DNA of 64,000 nt, taken from Halomonas sp. KG2. Lineage in GTDB: Bacteria > Pseudomonadota > Gammaproteobacteria > Pseudomonadales > Halomonadaceae. Under the pieces are notes generated by a model. That model ran no database searches, was not told the origin of the DNA, and saw nothing but the letters and a program-made list of their open reading frames with translations. The position numbers were made by a program, and so were the translations under genes. Positions 7,373 through 20,998 of the stretch are shown here, one piece after another (the stretch's first letter is position 1; every line of letters begins with the position of its first letter). The stretch is taken from the NCBI GenBank assembly GCA_030440445.1, contig CP098528.1, positions 1,426,001 to 1,490,000 on the forward strand, given 5' to 3'.

Positions 7373-7448
7373 TCCTCGATAGCTCAGTTGGTAGAGCAAA
7401 TGACTGTTAATCATTGGGTCGCAGGTTCGAGTCCTGCTCGAGGAGCCA
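7373..7448 (+). tRNA. tRNA-Asn (GTT), copy 1
   Basis: A 76-nt cloverleaf with CCA encoded: acceptor TCCTCGA pairs with TCGAGGA, D arm GCTC/GAGC, anticodon loop CTGTTAA (anticodon GTT), T arm GCAGG TTCGAGT CCTGC. First of three tandem copies. Confidence 0.97.
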
Positions 7449-7526
7449 ACATACTGAAGCCTAAAGCAGGTTTTATAGCGCTTTCAGTGGTGGCTTCGCT
7501 CTAAACACAGCAGCAAAATGTAATGT

Positions 7527-7602
7527 TCCTCGATAGCTCAGTTGGTAGAGCAAATGACTGTTAATCATTGGGTCGCAGGTTCGAGTCCTGCTCGAGGAGC
7601 CA
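7527..7602 (+). tRNA. tRNA-Asn (GTT), copy 2
   Basis: Identical in sequence to copy 1, including the acceptor stem TCCTCGA/TCGAGGA and encoded CCA, after a 78-nt spacer. Probably cotranscribed with the other two copies. Confidence 0.97.
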
Positions 7603-7641
7603 AATTGCTGTTCTGCTTTAATTACCGCCTACGGTAAACGT

Positions 7642-7717
7642 TCCCCGATAGCTCAGTTGGTAGAGCAAATGACTGTTAATCATTGGGTCGCAGGTTCGAG
7701 TCCTGCTCGGGGAGCCA
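7642..7717 (+). tRNA. tRNA-Asn (GTT), copy 3, integration target
   Basis: Same body as copies 1 and 2, but the acceptor stem is TCCCCGA/TCGGGGA, a compensated T-to-C and A-to-G pair change. Its last 17 nt (7701-7717) are repeated at 20982-20998, so the element entered here and restored an intact tRNA gene. Confidence 0.97.
7701..7717 (+). repeat. attL core (tRNA-Asn 3' end)
   Basis: The 17 bases TCCTGCTCGGGGAGCCA form the T-arm/acceptor 3' end of the third tRNA-Asn and are repeated exactly at 20982-20998. With the integrase gene next to it, this marks the left border of a 13.3-kb integrative element. Confidence 0.9.
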
Positions 7718-7832
7718 ACGGCCATTCTTGAGACTTCCTGAGAAAGCCAAAAATCATGTGTAACACTCTGAATGACATGATTTTTCACTCCTAGTTGTTC
7801 CTTGTTATTCCTTCCAAAACCAGATGCTAAGT

Positions 7833-7850
7833 GGTATACAGAACGGTATA
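7833..7850 (+). repeat. Paired GGTATA sites, left end of the element
   Basis: Two direct GGTATA hexamers at 7833 and 7845 (12 bp start to start, GGTATACAGAACGGTATA) lie between attL and the integrase start. The same pair with the same spacing occurs at 20903-20920 near attR. These are candidate arm-type integrase or excisionase sites. They overlap the integrase promoter region, which would allow autoregulation. Confidence 0.55.
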
Positions 7851-7882
7851 TGCCTCTGTTCGAAGATGCTCAGTATACCATC

Positions 7883-9088
7883 ATGACGCTTACTATCCGG
7901 CAAATAAACGCAACTAAACCCAGTACGAAAATTGTCAGCCTTTCTGATGGCCAGGGACTAGAGCTTAGGATCTCGCCTAATGGAAGCCGTGGTTGGCGTT
8001 TGCGCTACACACGCCCCAACGGCAAACGCAACATGACCAGCCTTGGCAGTTATCCAGAAGTGAGCCTTGCAGAAGCGCGCGAGAAGCGAACGGAGATAAG
8101 GCGGCAGTTAGCTCAGGGTATTGACCCCGTTGAGCAAAAACAGAGTGATAAACGTCAGCAGAAGCGCGCCGCGCAGAACACCTTCAAAGCACTGGCGATA
8201 GAGTGGCACGCTTCTATGGTGCCGCGCTGGAAAGAGACTTCTAAGCGCGCCAAAGATAGTATGCGCGTGTTGGAGATCTACGTATTCCCCAAAGTGGGCA
8301 ATCGTGCCATTGAAAGTATTCTGCCTCTGGAGTGGCTGGAAATACTGCGTGGGCTAGAGGATGCAGAAAAGTTCGAACAGAGACGCCGCCTACATGCTTT
8401 TTGCCGTGACATTTACCGCTTCGCTATCATAACGGGAAGGGTTAGCTATAATCCCCTTGCCGACCTAAATACAGCGCTTAAGCCCTATAAGAAGGGCAGC
8501 TTTCATCACGTCTCTCAACAAGAGTTACCGGCGCTTGTGCGTGATATTGAAGCGTATGATAAAAGCCCCATGGTGCGCATTGGCTTAAAGCTGTTGTTAC
8601 TGACCGCTGTGCGCCCTGGTGAACTGCGCTTGGCTGAGTGGACAGAGTTCGACCTACAAGCAGCTATATGGAAGATTCCCGCCGAGCGCATGAAGATGGG
8701 CAGGGTGCACCAAGTACCTCTACCTACTCAGGCAGTTGAAGAGTTGCGTTACCTGCATAAGCTAACCGGCCCATTCAAACTACTGTTCCCTGGTCGTAAT
8801 AACCCCCGTAAGCCGCTATCCGATGCGGCCTTTAACATGGCCCTAAAACGTATGGGCTATGAGGGGCGGCACGTACCCCATGGCACCCGCCATGTAGTGG
8901 CCACTGACCTTAAAGAGATGGGCTACCCTAGAGAATGGATAGAGGCTCAGCTATCACACAAGCTGCCGGGGATCGAGGGCATTTATACTCGCGCTGAACA
9001 CATGGCACCGGATCAGCGGCCTGCCATGATGCAGTTTTGGGGGGATTATCTTTTTAGCAAGAGGCGGAGCGGTGGTTTAGCGTCATGA
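7883..9088 (+). CDS. P4-type tyrosine integrase
   Basis: Site-specific recombinase of the P4-integrase group (N-terminal DUF4102-like arm-binding domain, then a core-binding domain and C-terminal catalytic domain). I choose ATG at 7883 (MTLTIRQINATKPS, 401 aa). The longer frame would use a TTG at 7802 and lacks the family's start. N-terminal block: SLSDGQGLELRISPNGSRGWRLRYT. Catalytic residues visible: Arg in TAVRPGELRLAEW, His-x-x-Arg in HGTRHVVATDL, Tyr in GIEGIYTRAEH. It lies 165 nt from the tRNA-Asn attachment site and is the integrase of this element. Confidence 0.95.
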   Translation: MTLTIRQINATKPSTKIVSLSDGQGLELRISPNGSRGWRLRYTRPNGKRNMTSLGSYPEVSLAEAREKRTEIRRQLAQGIDPVEQKQSDKRQQKRAAQNTFKALAIEWHASMVPRWKETSKRAKDSMRVLEIYVFPKVGNRAIESILPLEWLEILRGLEDAEKFEQRRRLHAFCRDIYRFAIITGRVSYNPLADLNTALKPYKKGSFHHVSQQELPALVRDIEAYDKSPMVRIGLKLLLLTAVRPGELRLAEWTEFDLQAAIWKIPAERMKMGRVHQVPLPTQAVEELRYLHKLTGPFKLLFPGRNNPRKPLSDAAFNMALKRMGYEGRHVPHGTRHVVATDLKEMGYPREWIEAQLSHKLPGIEGIYTRAEHMAPDQRPAMMQFWGDYLFSKRRSGGLAS

Positions 9089-10060: not shown

Positions 10061-11188
10061 ATGGGGATGGAGTTAAATTTAGATGAAGCTGTGAATTATC
10101 ACTACGATGAATTTCCACCTCAAAAAGTAGATTATGGCAAATTCGTAGACAAGCTTATAAAGGCTACAGATGCAATTGCACGCTATGATCAAATGCTAAA
10201 AAATATGCACAATAGCGAAATATTGCTTGCACCATTAAGGAATCAAGAAGCAGTTATTTCCTCTAGAATGGAGGGAACTGTTAGTACTATGGATGAAATA
10301 TTGCAATATGAAGCTGATCATGAAAATGAGACGGCTAGTACACTTAGTGTAAGGTCTGAAGTTATTGAAACAATACTTTATCAAAGGGCGTTGAAGGCCG
10401 CTCAAAAAGCTCTAAATGATGGGTATCCAATTTCTCAGTCGCTGCTTAAAGGGATACACCAACGTCTTTTATCATTTGGCAGAGGGGCATCAAAGTCACC
10501 AGGGGAGTTTAAGGTTGAGCAAAATTATTTAGCTGATAGAAATAAAAAGAAAATACTTTTCATTCCCGTTAGCCCGGAGCGGCTGCAGGATGGTTTAGAT
10601 GTATTGTTCAAGTATATCAATGAAGACCCTAGTCCCACCCTCGTTAAAGCAGCGTTGGCGCATATAGAGTTTGAGGCATTACATCCGTTTAAGGATGGTA
10701 ATGGAAGAATTGGGAGGATGTTGATAACTTTGATGTTATGGAAGTATGGAACTATTTCAGCACCTCATTTTTACATTAGTGGATACTTTGAGGAAAATAA
10801 GGATGAGTACATTGATACGATGAGGAGAGTATCAGAGACAGGGGATTGGGATGAATGGTGTTCTTTTTTTCTAGAGGCGGTAGAGCAACAGGCAATACGG
10901 AATTTAACTATTGCTGAAAATATAAGGTTGTTATATGAAGAAATGAAAATATTATTTGCTGAGTTATTGTCTTCAAAATGGAGTGTTACTGCATTAGATT
11001 TTGTTTTCACTAACCCTGTTTTTCGTAATAATAAATTTACTTCACAAAGTGGTATTCCTGCAGCTACTGCTGCAAGATTTACTAGAATTATGTTAGATAA
11101 TGACATAATACGTACAGTTGAGGAGGCATCAGGACGACGGCCAGCAATGTATTCCTTTGAACCTTTGATGAAACTAGTCCGTGTTTAA
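10061..11188 (+). CDS. Fic family protein (AMPylase-type) with N-terminal inhibitory motif
   Basis: Fic (filamentation induced by cAMP) domain enzyme, expected to transfer AMP from ATP to a target hydroxyl. The active-site loop HPFKDGNGRIGR is intact at residues 208-219. An N-terminal class II inhibitory motif, SSRMEG (Ser67-x3-Glu71-Gly72), should block ATP positioning until released. Residues 1-60 form the Fic-N region and the last 80 resemble a winged-helix domain (SGIPAATAARFTRIMLDNDIIRTVEEASGRRPAMYSF). The gene is clearly more AT-rich than its neighbours, a sign of separate acquisition. A strong terminator follows. No antitoxin gene is adjacent. Target unknown. Confidence 0.93.
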   Translation: MGMELNLDEAVNYHYDEFPPQKVDYGKFVDKLIKATDAIARYDQMLKNMHNSEILLAPLRNQEAVISSRMEGTVSTMDEILQYEADHENETASTLSVRSEVIETILYQRALKAAQKALNDGYPISQSLLKGIHQRLLSFGRGASKSPGEFKVEQNYLADRNKKKILFIPVSPERLQDGLDVLFKYINEDPSPTLVKAALAHIEFEALHPFKDGNGRIGRMLITLMLWKYGTISAPHFYISGYFEENKDEYIDTMRRVSETGDWDEWCSFFLEAVEQQAIRNLTIAENIRLLYEEMKILFAELLSSKWSVTALDFVFTNPVFRNNKFTSQSGIPAATAARFTRIMLDNDIIRTVEEASGRRPAMYSFEPLMKLVRV

Positions 11189-11328: not shown

Positions 11329-11415
11329 CGCTGATGGAAAGGTTTTGGCATGGGCGTCAAGCTTAGTCCGGCTATTGGAGCATTTGCTCGGACTGAAAAA
11401 CGAGGACATAAACCC

Positions 11416-11718
11416 ATGACTGACACCACACACCAACCCACCTTCAAAACGGTGACCAAGATCCCGCTAGGCAATCGCCTGTTGCGCCGTAAAGACGTGG
11501 AGCAGAAAACCGGAAAGAGCCGTTCAGCCATTTATGACGGTATTCGCCAGGGCACCTTTCCCGCCCCGGTGCCCATCGGCGGTAAGAGCGTGGCGTGGCT
11601 TGAAGAGGAGGTGGATAGCTGGATTGCCCACTGCCTGGAGGAGCGCAAGCGCCATCGCCTGGAAAACTGCCCTACACCGCTACGCATGACTACCCAACCG
11701 CAGGAGCAACGCGCATGA
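11416..11718 (+). CDS. AlpA-family transcriptional regulator
   Basis: Small (100 aa from ATG 11416) MerR/Xis-like winged-helix DNA-binding protein of the AlpA family. The conserved core is NRLLRRKDVEQKTGKSRSAIYDGIRQGTFPAPVPIGGKSVAWLEEEVDSWI. In P4-like satellites and CP4-57 such proteins activate late or excision genes. An upstream in-frame ATG at 11350 exists, but the extra residues look unrelated to the family. It overlaps the next small ORF by ATGA. Confidence 0.92.
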   Translation: MTDTTHQPTFKTVTKIPLGNRLLRRKDVEQKTGKSRSAIYDGIRQGTFPAPVPIGGKSVAWLEEEVDSWIAHCLEERKRHRLENCPTPLRMTTQPQEQRA

Positions 11719-12637: not shown

Positions 12638-12947
12638 TTCATCCACCACCCCACGCCTTGAAGATGCGCTTTGCCTGACTGAGGCCGAATGCCTGCTGAT
12701 TGACCCTCGTGCCAAAGCAGAAGATCTATTCGACCAGTGCGAAACCCGCCTGGAAGCGGCCAGCAATCTGATGATGACGTTAAGCATGCTCGACGCGCCG
12801 GGCGCTTGCGCCGATGCACGTGATCTAGCTCACGTCGCGCTATCTTCCCGCTTGTTGTTAGCCGATTCACTCGATTTGCTCATGGCTGCCCGCCGAGTAG
12901 CCAAAGGCCAAGCAACGCCTGCCAGGAAAGGGGGCGCACATGGCTAA
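12630..12947 (+). CDS. Small protein upstream of the primase
   Basis: 105 aa from ATG 12630 (MLNSSTTPRLEDALCL), with GAGGGGGTGGG in front as ribosome-binding site. Helix-rich and acidic in the middle (KAEDLFDQCETRLEAASNLMMTLSML), basic at the end. It overlaps the previous ORF and the primase start (12940). Such small ORFs precede primases in P4-like elements. No known domain recognised. Confidence 0.65.
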   Translation: MLNSSTTPRLEDALCLTEAECLLIDPRAKAEDLFDQCETRLEAASNLMMTLSMLDAPGACADARDLAHVALSSRLLLADSLDLLMAARRVAKGQATPARKGGAHG

Positions 12948-13932
12948 GACGACCGTTCAAAAAATCCAGCAAGTGGCGGCAGTCGCGCTGAACAGCGCCG
13001 AAACTCTGCTGGCTGAGTGGCTGCCTGATGGGCAGCGCCAGGGCCGCGAGTGGGTCGCCCGCAATACAGCCCGCGCCGATGCCTGCCCTGGCTCGTTTGG
13101 CGTGTCGCTGGTGTCTGGCAAGTGGAACGACTTTGCTGACCAAGATGCCCACGGCGGGGATCTGGTTTCCTTGCTGAGCTACCTGCGTGGCTGCCGACAG
13201 CTTGAAGCCGCCATGTTGATTGATGAGCAGCTTGGGCTAGGCATCTTCCAACGTTCAGGCGCGTCTAACGCGCCGCTACCCAAACCCTGTGAGGTACCCA
13301 CCAAAAGCCAGCTTAGCCAGCAAGCAGAAGCCGAGCGCCTAGCGACTCAAGAGCGCACCGCCCAGGCCGCACAGCGGCTTTGGCACTCGGCAGGCCCCGC
13401 TAACCCAGCGCACCCTTATTTAGTGGAAAAGGGGATCAAGCCGTACCACCTTCGCCAATCTGCCCAGGGGCAACTGTTGGTACCGCTTTATGCAGAAGGG
13501 CAGCTGGTCAACCTGCAATGCATCGACCAACACGGCCACAAGCGCTTTTTGAAAGGTGGTCGGGTACGGGGCGCGTATGCGCCCCTTGGCAAGGTGCAGG
13601 CAGGCCGCCAGCTTTTTATCTGTGAGGGATGGGCCACTGGCGCAACCCTTCACGCCCACACCCGCGAACCCGTGGCCTGCGCCATGAACGCGGGCAACCT
13701 CGCCGCCGTGGCCGAAACCTTACGCGAACGATACGACGCCCTGGACCTAGTGATAGCCGGGGATGACGACCGCTTAACCCCCGGCAACCCAGGCCGCACC
13801 GCCGCCAATGCAGCAGCGCTGGCCGTGGGTGCCCTGGTGCTGTTTCCCGTATGGCCACAAGACGCCCCCACCACACTCAGCGACTTTAACGACTTAGCTC
13901 GCTGGTATCGCCAGCAAAGGAACGCCACATGA
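12940..13932 (+). CDS. Toprim-domain primase
   Basis: Replication primase of the element, 330 aa. The N-terminal part resembles phage/plasmid primase zinc-ribbon-like domains that have lost the ribbon cysteines (GSFGVSLVSGKWNDFADQDAHGGDLVSLLSYL). The central part has HPYLVEKGIKPYHLRQSAQGQLLVPLY. The C-terminal Toprim domain shows LFICEGWATGATLH (catalytic Glu) and VIAGDDDR (Asp cluster). It overlaps the downstream helicase-like gene by 4 nt. Together they stand in for the fused alpha primase-helicase of phage P4. Confidence 0.9.
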   Translation: MAKTTVQKIQQVAAVALNSAETLLAEWLPDGQRQGREWVARNTARADACPGSFGVSLVSGKWNDFADQDAHGGDLVSLLSYLRGCRQLEAAMLIDEQLGLGIFQRSGASNAPLPKPCEVPTKSQLSQQAEAERLATQERTAQAAQRLWHSAGPANPAHPYLVEKGIKPYHLRQSAQGQLLVPLYAEGQLVNLQCIDQHGHKRFLKGGRVRGAYAPLGKVQAGRQLFICEGWATGATLHAHTREPVACAMNAGNLAAVAETLRERYDALDLVIAGDDDRLTPGNPGRTAANAAALAVGALVLFPVWPQDAPTTLSDFNDLARWYRQQRNAT

Positions 13933-15722
13933 GCGAGCAAATCACACGCGAACAGCAAGCCCACCTCTCCCTGGTGGGCAAGCCCACGGCGCCCAAGATC
14001 GATACCTTAGAGCGCCCCAGCTATGCGGTGTACGAAGGCCCCACCATGGTGGAAGGCAAGCAGTACCGGGCGGGCACGTGGTACCACGGGATCAAGCACA
14101 CCAACAGCGACGAGGCAGGCCAGCCGTTCGACCTCTGGCTATGCGCGCCGCTGTACGTCAAAGCGGAAACGATCAACAGCGACGATGGCAGCGTTGGCCG
14201 CCTGCTGCGCTTCAAGCATCGCGGCCATGCCATTGAGTACGTCATGCCCATGGAAGCCTTGGCAGGCAAAGGGGAGGAGGTGCTGAAAGCCCTGCTACGC
14301 CAAGGGCTAGAGGTGGACTACCACCAGCGCCGCTATGTGCCTGCTTACATTGCTAGCCACCACGGCTTAACACGCATTTTGGCCACCACCACCAAGCCAG
14401 GGTGGCACGAGCGCAGCGGAGCTTTTGTGCTGCCTAGCCGGGTTTTAGGCGGTGAAGATGTGCGCTATCAGGACAGCGGCAAAGGCGCACTGCTGTTCTC
14501 AGAGCGGGGCACCTTGGAAGGCTGGAAAAGCGAGCTGGCTTACTACTGCCAGGGCAACCCGGTACTGATCCTATCCGTTTGCTGCGCACTTGCTGGCCCG
14601 TTGCTTTCAAAAGTAGGCGTCAATGGTGGCGGCGTGCATCTGGTGGGCGACTCCTCAAGTGGTAAATCACTCGCCCAGGCACTCGCCGCCACGGTATGGG
14701 GCGACCCCAGCCGCTTTGCCGCCTCTTGGGATATGTCGCGAGGCGGTATCGAGATTGAGGCATCGTCACGCAATGACACGGTGTTGATTCTGGACGAGAT
14801 CAAACGCGCCGACCCCAAGCGGGTACAAGAAATGGCCTACGCCATCGCTAACGGCACGGGTAAGGGCACCATGACCCGTGAGCGGGAAGGGCGGCCCAAA
14901 CTCTATTGGCGTGTTTTGGCGCTTTCCAGTGGTGAACGCTCGCTGTCTGAACATGCGGCCATTTCTGGCAATGCTGCCCATGCCGGGGCAGAACTACGCA
15001 TGGTGGACGTCAACGCGGGTACGCGTACCTACCGTGCCTTTGACGATGTACACGGCATGAGCGGAGCCACCTTCCACAGAAAGCTGACCACGGCCACAGC
15101 GCACCACTTTGGCATGATTGGCCCAACCTTTGTGGCGCATTTACTCAAAGAAACCGACCCCGATTACTTTTATCGGCGGTTCGCTGAGGTACGCGACGGA
15201 TTCAACTCTGATGGCCCCCAGGCGGGCAGGGTGGCGGATCGCTTCGCCATCATTGGACTAGCAGGAGAGCTGGCGACCACCTACGGGATTTTGCCGTGGG
15301 AAGAAGGGACCGCAGCTAATGCAAGCCGTCAGCTATTCCGCGAGTGGGTCGCCAGGGTAGGTGACGGGAACGCGGAAGATCGGCAAATACTTAGCGCGCT
15401 ATCGGACTTCATCGCTATGCACGGTGATAGCCGCTTTTCCAACATCGCAGCTGAGCTGCCTAATCCAGGCATCAAGCACCGTGCGGGTTACTACGAGATA
15501 GAGGACAGAAAACGCCTGTATCTGTTCAACCGTGCCTCGCTGACCGAGGCCGCGGCAGGTTATGGCCGTGACCGCGTGATACGCACCCTAGAAACCTACA
15601 ACGTGCTCGCTAAAACCGACAGTGGCCGCCGCCAGAAAAACTACCGCCTGCCAGGAGGAGGGAGCACGCGCTTTTTCGTCATTGATCCCGACAAGCTGGA
15701 CGGTGAGCGAGGGGGCGAATGA
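13929..15722 (+). CDS. DUF927 domain helicase-like ATPase
   Basis: 597-aa replication ATPase of the DUF927 family, often found next to primases on satellites and plasmids. Walker A is GDSSSGKS with Lys246, Walker B is VLILDEIKRA (Asp289-Glu290), followed by a sensor-like VLALSSGERSL. The N-terminal 200 residues carry the DUF927-specific part (LEVDYHQRRYVPAYIASH, TKPGWHERSGAFVLPSRVLGG). The C-terminus ends as a winged-helix-like segment (YETYNVLAKT-type context). It is ATGA-coupled to the primase and immediately precedes the iteron region, its probable binding target. Confidence 0.92.
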   Translation: MSEQITREQQAHLSLVGKPTAPKIDTLERPSYAVYEGPTMVEGKQYRAGTWYHGIKHTNSDEAGQPFDLWLCAPLYVKAETINSDDGSVGRLLRFKHRGHAIEYVMPMEALAGKGEEVLKALLRQGLEVDYHQRRYVPAYIASHHGLTRILATTTKPGWHERSGAFVLPSRVLGGEDVRYQDSGKGALLFSERGTLEGWKSELAYYCQGNPVLILSVCCALAGPLLSKVGVNGGGVHLVGDSSSGKSLAQALAATVWGDPSRFAASWDMSRGGIEIEASSRNDTVLILDEIKRADPKRVQEMAYAIANGTGKGTMTREREGRPKLYWRVLALSSGERSLSEHAAISGNAAHAGAELRMVDVNAGTRTYRAFDDVHGMSGATFHRKLTTATAHHFGMIGPTFVAHLLKETDPDYFYRRFAEVRDGFNSDGPQAGRVADRFAIIGLAGELATTYGILPWEEGTAANASRQLFREWVARVGDGNAEDRQILSALSDFIAMHGDSRFSNIAAELPNPGIKHRAGYYEIEDRKRLYLFNRASLTEAAAGYGRDRVIRTLETYNVLAKTDSGRRQKNYRLPGGGSTRFFVIDPDKLDGERGGE

Positions 15723-17774: not shown

Positions 17775-18161
17775 ATGGGAAGCTCTGGTTCAGGTCGTTT
17801 TTCAGATTATCCTGGCACTAAAACCAGAGAAGTTGATGGAGATGGAACAGGTGTAGCTGGTGGCACTAGCGGCGTAGATAAATGCCAGCAAGCATTTCAG
17901 GTGCTGCTCGAAGATGTAGGCAATAGTGATTTTTATTCGAAATTCAGTAATGTTCCGGCTATTGGCGATCAGTTGGTAATTCGCTTTGATAAGAGCCGTG
18001 TTTTTGCACTTGATGTGAATGGTGTGAAAGTTGGCGCGCTCCCCACATCATTCAATTATCTAGTTGAGTGTATGGAAGATGGGGTGAGTTATGTCGGAGT
18101 AGTGAGCTCTTCCGCAGTATCACCCGTTCCAACTGTAGCTGCTGACTTTGTGGCGAAATGA
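17775..18161 (+). CDS. Small Gly/Ser N-terminus protein, first gene of the QueC-like operon
   Basis: 128 aa. ATG 17775 is chosen because AGGAGGG at 17762-17768 sits 6 nt before it; the frame is open back to a GTG at 17703. The protein begins MGSSGSGRFSDYPGTK, a flexible Gly/Ser tip, then VDGDGTGVAGGTSGVDKCQQAFQVLLEDV and a compact beta-rich domain (GDQLVIRFDKSRVFALDVNGVKVGALPTSFNYLVECM). After Met removal it would expose an N-terminal glycine. The N-terminal style recalls QatB-type partners of QueC homologues, but I see no clear domain match. It is ATGA-coupled to the next gene. Proposed role (inference): protein substrate or sensor of the system. Confidence 0.8.
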   Translation: MGSSGSGRFSDYPGTKTREVDGDGTGVAGGTSGVDKCQQAFQVLLEDVGNSDFYSKFSNVPAIGDQLVIRFDKSRVFALDVNGVKVGALPTSFNYLVECMEDGVSYVGVVSSSAVSPVPTVAADFVAK

Positions 18162-19498
18162 TTATGGCCAACAGTGACCAGGCCCTATTAGTCGTTGGTG
18201 AATTGGTAGTGGATTATACGCTCTCCCAGAATGGTGCGATGTGTAAGCTACGCTTAGGAGGCATCTGCCACGCTGCGAGGGGGCTATGGGCTTCAAAGAT
18301 TGAATACTCGGTGGCAGCTTTCTGTCCGCGATACCTGATTGATGAAGCAAAAAGCTATCTCTTTGAGTTCGGATGCAAAGAGTTCATCTGGCTTGGTGAT
18401 GTGGTTGGTGCCCCTAACGTAATCCTTATCGGTGATGTGGCAGAGGTTTCGCATCAAGGTTACGAAGATTTGATGCGTGATACCAAGGTAGTGAATTTTC
18501 ACAACACGCTACCGAAACTCGACACTTATCAGAAGGTCGTTGTTTTTCCTGGTAAGTTTGATATCAACACCCTAGCCAGCTTGTTTACTGAAAATACTCA
18601 GTTCTCTATTGACATTGCATACGATGTTGAGGATCTCTCATCACTCAAAGCGCTCAGAGGTCGCTTAGAAGCTATCATTATCTCAACGTCGTCTTCCCTT
18701 TTTATGAGGCTAGGGGCGGGAAATGTCGAAGAACTGTTAGATGAAGTAAACACGCTTTCGCCGAAAGTGTTTCTGCTCAAAGAAAATCGTGGCGGCAGCC
18801 GACTCTTTTATATGCGAGATGGTGGCTTCGAAGAAATACCGGCTAAGTTGAGTCAAACTGTCAATTCAGTCGGCGTTGGTGATGTCTATTCCAGTGTAAT
18901 GGTGGGGCTCTCTTACAAAGGCTGGTCCGAAGCAGCGTGGCGTGGAAGCCAAGCTGCCACTGTGTACTCCCAGACTACGTTTCCCGACGATATCAAGCGC
19001 GATATACAGCGGGGATTCCTACTGTCAGTGGAGATGCTGCAAGCACTTGGTGGGACGGTGCTCCCTTGGCATGACCGGCAAACATACTCAATCTATCTTG
19101 CCGGTCCTGATTTCTCGTATGTATCAAAGCCGGAGCTCGACCATGCTATAGACAGCCTCACATATCACAATTTCAAAGTGAGACGTCCCATTTTGGAAAA
19201 TGGAGAGTTAAAGCGACCTGCAAGTGAGGCTGATCTGCAGCGAACATATCAGCTGGACTACAAGCTATTGAAGGAATGCGATGCGGTCTTCTCGATTCCT
19301 CTAGACCGTGATCCTGGCACGCTTGTTGAGCTTGGGATGGCCATTGAGATGGGAAAACCGGTTATCACCTATGACCCTCGGCGCGAAAATGAAAACACTA
19401 TGGTGATCTCTGGAAGTTCAGTTTACTCCACGGATCTTGACGCGTGTCTCAACGGCACTTTCGAGGTTATTGCAGCACTTAGGGCTAAATCGCTATGA
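18158..19498 (+). CDS. PfkB-type kinase fused to nucleoside 2-deoxyribosyltransferase
   Basis: 446 aa, two domains. Residues 5-300: ribokinase/PfkB fold, with LLVVGELVVDYTL at the N-terminus, an LGG loop (KLRLGGICHAARGLW) and the signature NSVGVGDVYSSVMVGL, where Asp242 is the likely catalytic base (family consensus G-A-G-D). Residues 309-440: nucleoside 2-deoxyribosyltransferase-like, with YSIYLAGPDFS (Tyr313), the segment LLKECDAVFSIP, and DPGTLVELGMAIEMGKPVITYD with the likely nucleophile Glu391. Together they could phosphorylate a nucleoside and cut or swap an N-glycosidic bond. It overlaps both neighbours by ATGA. An alternative start at 18164 is two codons in. Confidence 0.88.
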   Translation: MIMANSDQALLVVGELVVDYTLSQNGAMCKLRLGGICHAARGLWASKIEYSVAAFCPRYLIDEAKSYLFEFGCKEFIWLGDVVGAPNVILIGDVAEVSHQGYEDLMRDTKVVNFHNTLPKLDTYQKVVVFPGKFDINTLASLFTENTQFSIDIAYDVEDLSSLKALRGRLEAIIISTSSSLFMRLGAGNVEELLDEVNTLSPKVFLLKENRGGSRLFYMRDGGFEEIPAKLSQTVNSVGVGDVYSSVMVGLSYKGWSEAAWRGSQAATVYSQTTFPDDIKRDIQRGFLLSVEMLQALGGTVLPWHDRQTYSIYLAGPDFSYVSKPELDHAIDSLTYHNFKVRRPILENGELKRPASEADLQRTYQLDYKLLKECDAVFSIPLDRDPGTLVELGMAIEMGKPVITYDPRRENENTMVISGSSVYSTDLDACLNGTFEVIAALRAKSL

Positions 19499-20115
19499 GA
19501 CAGGCACTTTTACTAGCCTCAGGTGGGTTGGATTCAACAACTGTTGCATACCAGCTTGTTTCTGCAGATGTAGATGTCACACCAATTTTTTTCGATTATG
19601 GACAGCATTGTGTAGACGTTGAATGGAGTCGGGTGAACGAAGTTCTGCCCTCTAGCATGCGGCCACCTGAGCGCTTTGACATATCGAGCATCTTCCGGGG
19701 GTCGTCGTCGCGACTGATTCGTGAAGCAGATCTTTGGACTGAAGAAGTCAAAGATGACGACTTGTACATTCCCTACAGAACAATGATATTCTTCGCCGCC
19801 GCCGCGGCTCGCGCGCAAACCGTTGGAATATTGGATGTTTATACAGGTTTTATAAATAGTAATCATGCTAAAGAAATTGACTGTACTGCTGAGTTTATGG
19901 ATAGCCTCGACGGACTTACTTCAAGCATCGGCCCCGTTCGTTTTCATTCACCGTTTCGGTATTGGTCAAAGGCTGAAGTAGCCAGTACTGCTGCTGAACT
20001 TGGTGTACCTATTGGACGCACATATTCATGCCAAGCAGCCGCAAATTTTCCTTGCGGTGCCTGTCCAAATTGTGTGGAGCGCCTGAACGCATTGAAAGAG
20101 GCAAAATTAGTATGA
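19495..20115 (+). CDS. QueC-like PP-loop ATPase
   Basis: 206 aa. QueC converts 7-carboxy-7-deazaguanine to preQ0 using ATP and ammonia. Homologues occur in defence systems (QatC, type IV CBASS Cap9). Visible: PP-loop SGGLDST at residues 9-15, FFDYGQHCVDVEW, PYRTMIFFAAAAARA, GFINSNHAKEIDCTAEFMDSL (counterpart of the QueC substrate segment, but diverged), and a complete zinc site Cys179-x7-Cys187-x2-Cys190-x2-Cys193. It is slightly short against housekeeping QueC (about 220-230 aa). No queD, queE or folE is nearby, so it is not part of a queuosine operon. ATGA overlaps on both sides. Confidence 0.93.
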   Translation: MRQALLLASGGLDSTTVAYQLVSADVDVTPIFFDYGQHCVDVEWSRVNEVLPSSMRPPERFDISSIFRGSSSRLIREADLWTEEVKDDDLYIPYRTMIFFAAAAARAQTVGILDVYTGFINSNHAKEIDCTAEFMDSLDGLTSSIGPVRFHSPFRYWSKAEVASTAAELGVPIGRTYSCQAAANFPCGACPNCVERLNALKEAKLV

Positions 20116-20768
20116 CCAGCCCCGCCATTGAGATGCTGCTCATAGCACGACGCATCGCAAATTATGCGAAAGATGAAGGCGTGCTCTTGGGTGAGAGAAA
20201 AGCGCGTCTTACCTGTGATCACCTTGGGGCCGTTCTGGCGGATTCAGTCCTTCAAGCTGGGCTCAATTACACGACAGTCGTGCGCCCGCGGGTCTTAGAC
20301 ATTCTGCGTACTCATCCAGAGTGCCTTACTATTTCCTCACTGATCTCAGTTATTCAGAATGGAGGTTCGGGAGCATTTTTGAATTGGCGCCATCATGAGA
20401 AAATAAGCCGTTTCGAGGCTTTGGTAATTTTCCTCCATGGCTGGGGTATTGAAAATGCAGAAGATTTGCGTGCAGAATTGGGGACAGATGAATTTTGTTG
20501 TGCAATTCAAACCGTAAACGGCATTGGACCTAAGACAGTAGATTACATGGCTTGTCTAGTTGGTCTCGACACTATCGCAGTTGATCGTCACGTTCGCGCA
20601 TTCGCGAAAGCGGTTAGTGTCGATAATGATGACTACCAATACCTTCGTGAGACCTTTTGCTACGCTGCTGACCTCCTCTCACTACCCCGTCGAGAGTTTG
20701 ACGCCTGGCTCTGGCGTCGAGCTGTAGCTCCAGCTCAAGATCAAGCGCAGTTGGCCCTCGCAGTATAA
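20112..20768 (+). CDS. HhH-GPD DNA glycosylase, OGG-like, without Fe-S cluster
   Basis: 218 aa from ATG 20112, which overlaps the QueC-like stop (ATGA). The longer frame from 20028 lies inside the previous gene. The helix-hairpin-helix is VNGIGPKTVDYMACLVGLDTIAVDRHV. Lys141 matches the Schiff-base lysine of bifunctional glycosylase/lyases and Asp158 the catalytic aspartate. The C-terminus has no cysteine cluster, unlike EndoIII or MutY. Expected activity: excise a modified or damaged base and nick the strand. OGG-like proteins accompany QueC-like Cap9 in type IV CBASS. Last gene of the operon; 214 bp follow before attR. Confidence 0.9.
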   Translation: MTSPAIEMLLIARRIANYAKDEGVLLGERKARLTCDHLGAVLADSVLQAGLNYTTVVRPRVLDILRTHPECLTISSLISVIQNGGSGAFLNWRHHEKISRFEALVIFLHGWGIENAEDLRAELGTDEFCCAIQTVNGIGPKTVDYMACLVGLDTIAVDRHVRAFAKAVSVDNDDYQYLRETFCYAADLLSLPRREFDAWLWRRAVAPAQDQAQLALAV

Positions 20769-20981: not shown

Positions 20982-20998
20982 TCCTGCTCGGGGAGCCA
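20982..20998 (+). repeat. attR, truncated tRNA-Asn 3' end
   Basis: An exact 17-bp copy of the tRNA-Asn 3' terminus including the encoded CCA, with no tRNA body upstream. It defines the right border of the element, which spans 7718-20998 (13.3 kb). From here to 21210 I see no gene. Confidence 0.9.

Follow-up and report, generated by a model that had tools for sequence, protein, structure and literature searches.

A four-gene operon at 17775-20768 of the window, by which we mean the whole 64,000-nucleotide stretch of Halomonas sp. KG2 DNA analysed here, appears to be a mobile anti-phage operon built on the tagging of a protein tip by a QueC-family enzyme. We put the probability of this mechanism, taken as a whole, at about 0.6. 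Its computed basis is observed: the genes are co-inherited, the catalytic residues are intact, HIRAN and HhH-GPD folds are predicted, the tip of the first protein is conserved, and the genomic context is of defence type. From this basis we infer conjugation, a reader role for the glycosylase, a trigger and an anti-phage outcome, and the identity of the base is the least certain part. The genes and the tip are:

17775..18161, + strand: small protein P0001, 128 residues, proposed acceptor of a nucleobase tag
17775..17810, + strand: conserved tip of P0001, MGSSGSGRFSDY, from a majority-fraction profile of 34 sequences
18158..19498, + strand: P0002, 446 residues, a PfkB-like kinase domain fused to a nucleoside 2-deoxyribosyltransferase (NDT)-type domain (PF05014, 3.5e-14)
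19495..20115, + strand: QueC-like PP-loop enzyme P0003, 206 residues, proposed tail-modifying ligase (PF06508, 3.3e-32)
20112..20768, + strand: OGG/HhH-GPD glycosylase P0004, 218 residues, proposed DNA effector, with Lys141 (20532-20534), Asp158 (20583-20585) and a predicted HhH-GPD fold

A precedent is found in the type IV cyclic oligonucleotide-based antiphage signalling system (CBASS). According to PMC11996544 and PMC13279940, Cap9 joins 7-carboxy-7-deazaguanine (CDG) to the N-terminal glycine of a CD-NTase, and the TGT-like Cap10 binds the tagged tail. The same papers give MGGS as the target tip of Cap9 and MGTS as the tip on which QatC is thought to act. For the Qat system, the MGTS tip of QatB and QatC are described as essential (PMC13279940), and conjugation is proposed, although the reaction could not be reconstituted (PMC13279940 and PMC11996544). 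In the operon described here, the QueC-like ligase would use ATP to activate a carboxylated nucleobase, or a base-like acid, for attachment to the small protein at its N-terminal glycine. The long flexible tail of the small protein would reach the ligase, with its HIRAN domain holding DNA or DNA ends. The PfkB-NDT enzyme would phosphorylate a nucleoside and cleave its N-glycosidic bond, and in this way supply or license the base. The OGG-type glycosylase/lyase would be the effector; its base pocket may read the base-tagged tail, as Cap10 binds the tagged CD-NTase tail, and this reading would target or release the glycosylase for excision of bases from invading DNA. Nucleobase-to-protein conjugation has so far been shown in type IV CBASS and proposed in Qat, and this set would be the third case. 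A set this compact, which brings a base-handling enzyme of its own and a small, clean acceptor, would make the base, the reader and the output testable with four genes.

The four genes form one conserved, co-inherited system. When genome contigs were scanned with the second gene alone (PfkB-NDT, alignment A1), 74 loci were found in Pseudomonadota, Bacteroidota, Planctomycetota, Acidobacteria, Firmicutes, Cloacimonadota and a Peloplasma (taxa as labelled in the source records). All four genes were present in the same order in 67 of the 74, with median intergenic spacings of -1, -4 and -4 bases when the leftmost open reading frame (ORF) starts were used. A preliminary description of this DNA had proposed that the genes are one inherited unit, and co-occurrence of the four families elsewhere had been set beforehand as a test; the 67 complete loci uphold the proposal, and the families do co-occur in other genomes. 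Five of the seven incomplete loci were cut or broken. L063 and L091 lie at a contig start with the small gene missing, L030 is cut off by a contig edge, L074 has a truncated QueC-like frame followed by transposase frames, and L070 is disrupted. No glycosylase match was found in L087, which has an HD dGTPase-like gene instead, or in L090, which has transposase-like frames downstream; the glycosylase of L020 is split across two overlapping ORFs.

The operon is broad across phyla, rare, and unreported within the literature searched. Within the host genus, one of 82 genomes carries it, namely the window's own. The A1 scan of a phylum sample gave matches in three of 398 genomes, the sole full match being the host's own and the two partial ones covering model positions 238-424 and 309-423. 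Phage records gave one weak match, to the NDT part only. The operon also occurs on plasmid contigs, and nine of 12 loci on virus-labelled contigs have all four genes. No paper on the four-gene operon was among those listed by literature searches of openly licensed PubMed Central papers.

Genomic context was sampled at 20 of the 74 loci by taking as many as seven ORFs around each (139 proteins). The control consisted of 137 proteins encoded far away on these contigs, at positions picked by hand. At an E-value of 1e-10, the neighbours matched 217 PADLOC models and the controls four; these figures count models, not proteins, and one protein may match many. The neighbour matches listed include AriA, PtuA, KwaB, type I restriction, AbiLi and dGTPase; with Pfam, some neighbours also matched integrases and phage capsid proteins. 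The anticipated proximity to known defence genes was seen in the loci sampled.

This context bears on nucleobase or purine salvage, in which nucleosides are recycled by PfkB, NDT and the QueC-like enzyme, and the glycosylase serves ordinary repair. Purine salvage was proposed for cluster 4 of PF06508, the cluster with PfkB-PF05014 neighbours (Libby et al. 2026, PMC13329287), and the intact kinase and NDT active sites of the window's enzyme would agree with it. Set against this are the presence of the operon in one of the 82 genomes of the genus, the defence-type neighbourhoods, the plasmid and virus-labelled contigs, and the recurrence of a first gene whose product, Gly-tipped and HIRAN-like, has no obvious part in metabolism. 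We consider salvage very improbable. If the tagging mechanism is correct, a QueC cluster now interpreted as purine salvage would be recast as defence.

The small protein, the proposed acceptor, consists of a Gly/Ser-tipped tail (residues 1-34), modelled with low confidence, and a HIRAN-fold domain (residues 38-127). The tip is its best-conserved part despite lying in a disordered region: the mean majority fraction over 34 sequences was 0.82 for residues 1-12, 0.39 for residues 13-34 and 0.52 for residues 35-128. The family consensus is MGS[ST]GSG..[FL][ST]DY, followed by a variable linker and then the predicted HIRAN fold. The proteins were trimmed at an MG[ST] pattern, on which residues 1-3 are conditioned, while position 4 onward is free. 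Of 75 loci, all but L022 had an MG[ST] start in the frame of the small protein (74 of 75). HIRAN is a DNA-end-binding fold, and its prediction here comes from a structure model and a structure search; the Pfam HIRAN model stayed below threshold on single small proteins, with a best value of 0.14 in one of 34 members. We propose that Gly2, after removal of Met, is the acceptor. The preliminary description had recognised a small Gly/Ser-tipped protein, and the tip stands; the predicted HIRAN fold and the acceptor-like role had been missed.

The candidate ligase, P0003, is not a canonical queuosine enzyme, a possibility ruled out by score, motif and tree. Its score against TIGR00364, the canonical QueC equivalog, was 99.9 bits, under the cut-off of 150.3, and the host genome holds a separate canonical QueC above the cut-off at C1:2009188. 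The canonical substrate motif YPDC is replaced by EIDC; the Tyr that stacks on the base is Glu127 in P0003. The Watson-Crick reader of the base edge, Asp129, is retained and is invariant in 29 aligned sequences. The spacing of three motifs in P0003 fits the Cap9 signature, YGQ(x)5E, PF(x)4K and CQ(x)6CxxCxxC (the Cap9 spacing and the YPDC motif are taken from PMC13329287). A profile of the P0003 family, two cluster-4 rows included, matched E. coli QueC at 5e-22 and Cap9 at 7e-21. In two tree builds, 27 members of the P0003 family separated from 14 canonical QueC proteins, with support of 94/98 and 100/99 for the former and 96/95 and 89/94 for the latter. The two builds used different Cap9 rows, each on a long branch, one lying beside the P0003 family with weak support and the other beside the TIR type described below. 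Taken with the conserved glycine tip next door, P0003 would conjugate a nucleobase to the small protein.

As a guide to which base is attached, carrier genomes were probed for QueD (50 genomes), for canonical QueC (51) and, in 16 of the 22 without canonical QueC, for QueE. QueD (PF01242) was present in 38 of 50, or 39 with G019, matched in a wider search. Canonical QueC exceeded the cut-off in 29 of 51 and did not in 22. QueE was present in three Bacteroidota carriers without canonical QueC (G050-G052), and three QueE models gave no match from the model start in 13 of the 16 QueC-less carriers checked. Two of these 13, G030 and G040, gave borderline radical-SAM matches, and 11 of the 13 also lacked QueD. 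QueC-positive carriers such as G036 and G049 showed QueE alongside; in the genome of the window itself, QueD and QueC were present together with a QueE match. Among nine Bacteroidota carriers (G050-G056, G063 and G067), none had QueC over the cut-off, all nine had QueD, and the three checked had a QueE-like match.

These data can be read as a CDG tag like that of type IV CBASS, with the QueC-like enzyme as the equivalent of Cap9, fed by host QueD and QueE, and the PfkB-NDT enzyme given another task, such as recycling the tagged protein or nucleotides. The invariant Asp129, the QueC and QueD counts, the Bacteroidota carriers that have QueE without canonical QueC, the complete set in the window's own genome and the Cap9 precedent are all consistent with it. 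The replacement of the stacking Tyr by Glu127 argues the other way, as do the 22 carriers without QueC over the cut-off, most of those checked being without clear QueE and usually without QueD. On balance we regard a CDG tag as unlikely. Host-made CDG would not always be available, though most carriers could make it, and the PfkB-NDT enzyme would be the natural source of another base. The tag base may not be CDG, because the stacking Tyr is Glu and because 13 of the 16 QueC-less carriers checked have no clear QueE. Of the earlier "deazaguanine-like or modified base", the first half is therefore doubtful. A base made by the PfkB-NDT enzyme would, if true, free the system from the queuosine pathway.

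The putative catalytic residues of that enzyme are intact, with Asp242 (18881-18883) in GVGD and Glu391 (19328-19330) in DPGTLVELG, and both are invariant across 11 aligned sequences, the window's included. Its PfkB label comes from relatives: P0249 matches PF00294 and the families' profiles match, P0002 itself having no Pfam PfkB hit.

The glycosylase has the lysine and aspartate expected after the helix-hairpin-helix, K141 and D158, and these were invariant in 24 of 24 aligned glycosylases. Within the operon, PADLOC matched OGG at 5.8e-6 and QueC at 2.8e-25. The glycosylase is likely to act as a DNA effector, as had been suggested. Two other leads were dismissed: phmmer hits of P0004 to designed TIM barrels in the PDB, as repeat artefacts, and a match of profile A2 to an S-layer protein in the PDB, no stretch of which passed alone.

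An effector of this kind would also suit a restriction-like modification of DNA bases, in which the operon makes a modified base, host DNA is marked, the glycosylase removes unmarked or differently marked phage bases, and the HIRAN domain is a DNA clamp. In phages and Dpd islands, the modification of DNA with 7-deazaguanines draws on QueC chemistry, and the intact Lys and Asp of the glycosylase would agree with such a role. However, no TGT/DpdA-like enzyme, QueD or QueE was found among the 13 element proteins scanned, and the conserved glycine tip would be left unexplained. This reading seems quite improbable to us. The preliminary description had the operon making, transferring or sensing a modified base; protein tagging is more likely than the making or sensing of a base in DNA, since the Gly tip looks like a ligase acceptor.

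Several points weigh against the tagging mechanism. The PADLOC library dates from 2023, its counts are of models, and the context comes from 20 of 74 loci. The placement of Cap9 next to the P0003 clade shifted between the two trees. The Tyr that stacks on the base in QueC and Cap9 is replaced by Glu127, and CDG, the Cap9 substrate, may be unavailable in the 13 QueC-less carriers without clear QueE. The glycosylase as reader of a tagged tail is suggested by analogy only.

The operon lies last among the cargo of an element of 13.3 kb, whose two ends are marked by a 17-bp direct repeat of a tRNA-Asn end. The four genes overlap by ATGA at 18158, 19495 and 20112. The preliminary description had placed the four ATGA-joined genes at the cargo end of a tRNA-inserted element, and the repeat and the matches of the element genes confirm this. 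The other features of the element are:

7701..7717, + strand: attL, the 3'-terminal stretch of the third tRNA-Asn (7642-7717), repeated directly over 17 bp at 20982-20998
7802..9088, + strand: tyrosine integrase (Pfam Arm-DNA-bind_3, 3.9e-27; Phage_integrase, 8.4e-20), which we take to be P4-type from its arm domain
11350..11718, + strand: AlpA-family regulator (Pfam Phage_AlpA, 1.2e-18)
12940..13932, + strand: Toprim primase-like gene (Pfam Toprim_3, 2e-11)
13929..15722, + strand: DUF927 helicase-like gene (Pfam DUF927, 4.1e-69)
20982..20998, + strand: attR, 17-bp direct repeat

Three tRNA-Asn genes lie in tandem at 7373-7717; the element is in the third copy, which ends slightly unlike the other two. 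The element also carries a Fic-family gene (10061-11188; PADLOC SoFic, 3.1e-107), possibly a second defence gene. Thirteen element proteins were scanned with Pfam, ten of them also with PADLOC. CD-NTase, TGT/Cap10, QatA (KAP ATPase) and QatD (TatD nuclease) were not found among the 13 with Pfam, nor were TGT or CD-NTase among the ten with PADLOC, and the earlier statement that CD-NTase, TGT, QatA and TatD are absent is upheld for these proteins.

Related lineages share part of this arrangement. From 38 plasmid records with a cluster-4 or TIR-type PfkB gene, 18 were read, 15 of cluster 4 and three of the TIR type. A Gly/Ser-tipped frame lay directly upstream of PfkB-NDT in all 15 cluster-4 loci, with tips of MSGSG, MSGGG, MGGGG or similar, the loosest being MSSGD (L128) and MCGGG (L133). 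The tip start was chosen within the open frame in L015, L131 and L132, which have no annotated gene there, and in L016, which has no gene table. Ten aligned cluster-4 tipped proteins matched the window's small-protein family at an hhalign E-value of 3e-9, and the P0002 family matched the cluster-4 PfkB-NDT profile at 1e-18. The TIR type (n = 4) comprises three rhizobial plasmids and L156, a genome of the host genus:

L014:1685-6047, L017, L134 and L156:2903-7260: TIR-type operons, encoding a PfkB-like protein, a TIR protein, OGG, a QueC-like enzyme and a second, short TIR protein

The short TIR protein is tipped in all four loci, by MGGGSSG (twice), MGGGGGG and MGGSSIG, and both of the copies scanned are of the Pfam ThsB_TIR type. 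In L014, the one locus searched, the other TIR protein has a domain matching Cap10 at 6e-8. An HD dGTPase replaces the glycosylase after the QueC-like gene in L087:3560-4978 (Paenibacillus, of the window's family) and, in cluster 4, in L012:7177-8667 (a Moraxella plasmid). Constant in the loci read are a PfkB-family protein, a QueC-like enzyme and a Gly-tipped partner; the other parts vary.

We tentatively suggest, at clearly less than even odds, that immunity may use glycine tips tagged with a base as a general code, of which CBASS and Qat would be two instances. The tips of interchangeable partners (HIRAN proteins, ThsB-type TIRs, CD-NTases, QatB) would be marked by a single family of QueC-type ligases, base-binding enzymes (TGT-like, and in the window's operon OGG) would be the readers, and guanine- or NAD-directed enzymes (OGG, dGTPase, TIR) the effectors. 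The base of the PfkB-associated branches would be not CDG but one made by PfkB-NDT from a universal nucleotide; as a guess, the carboxyaminoimidazole nucleotide of purine synthesis would fit.

Two cluster-4 QueC operons, L126:977-3785 and L135:7187-9484, adjoin multiubiquitin-domain, ThiF-family and DUF6527 genes, another protein-conjugation set. In two roseobacter plasmids, a VUT-family gene, annotated as queuosine salvage, lies downstream of the cluster-4 operon (L131:7001-7540, L015:6269-6844).

The operon is a QueC-tagging kind of defence-type system that belongs neither to type IV CBASS nor to Qat, because the defining genes of those systems were looked for and not found. The relation to both that the preliminary description had drawn is supported. 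Type IV CBASS has OGG as a further gene, and it shares with the window's operon a QueC-like enzyme with Cap9 motif spacing, an OGG-type glycosylase and a Gly-tipped, flexible N-terminus on a partner. In one type IV CBASS operon (L151) the CD-NTase begins MGGSGGGFFSNSD (MGGSGGGFFS), which the window's MGSSGSGRFSDY resembles; as a query, this CD-NTase gave no match in the 398 phylum genomes, a negative that tells nothing, there being no positive to calibrate the search. Unlike type IV CBASS, the window's operon has no CD-NTase or TGT/Cap10 among the element proteins scanned, carries the tip on a HIRAN-fold protein, adds the PfkB-NDT enzyme and has lost the base-stacking Tyr.

With qatABCD the operon shares a small partner with an MG(T)S-like tip and a long flexible tail, adjoining a QueC-family enzyme. 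However, QatC has about 400 residues with required extensions, whereas P0003 has 206 and scored 12.6 bits against the QatC model NF041925 (cut-off 280); QatB is all-helical, and there is no QatA ATPase or QatD TatD in the window's element. Cluster 4 has the PfkB-NDT fusion adjoining a QueC-like gene and the Gly/Ser-tipped gene upstream, but its zinc motif is CH(x)5CxxCxGCxK (PMC13329287) against CQ(x)6CxxCxxC in the window, its clade in the trees is separate, and its QueC gene is, in the loci read, often followed by nitroreductase-like, dGTPase or restriction genes. Compared with the HIRAN domains of HLTF/Rad5 and the C-terminal region of HamB (Hachiman), that of the window has no helicase or nuclease attached and is a free-standing domain with a Gly tail.

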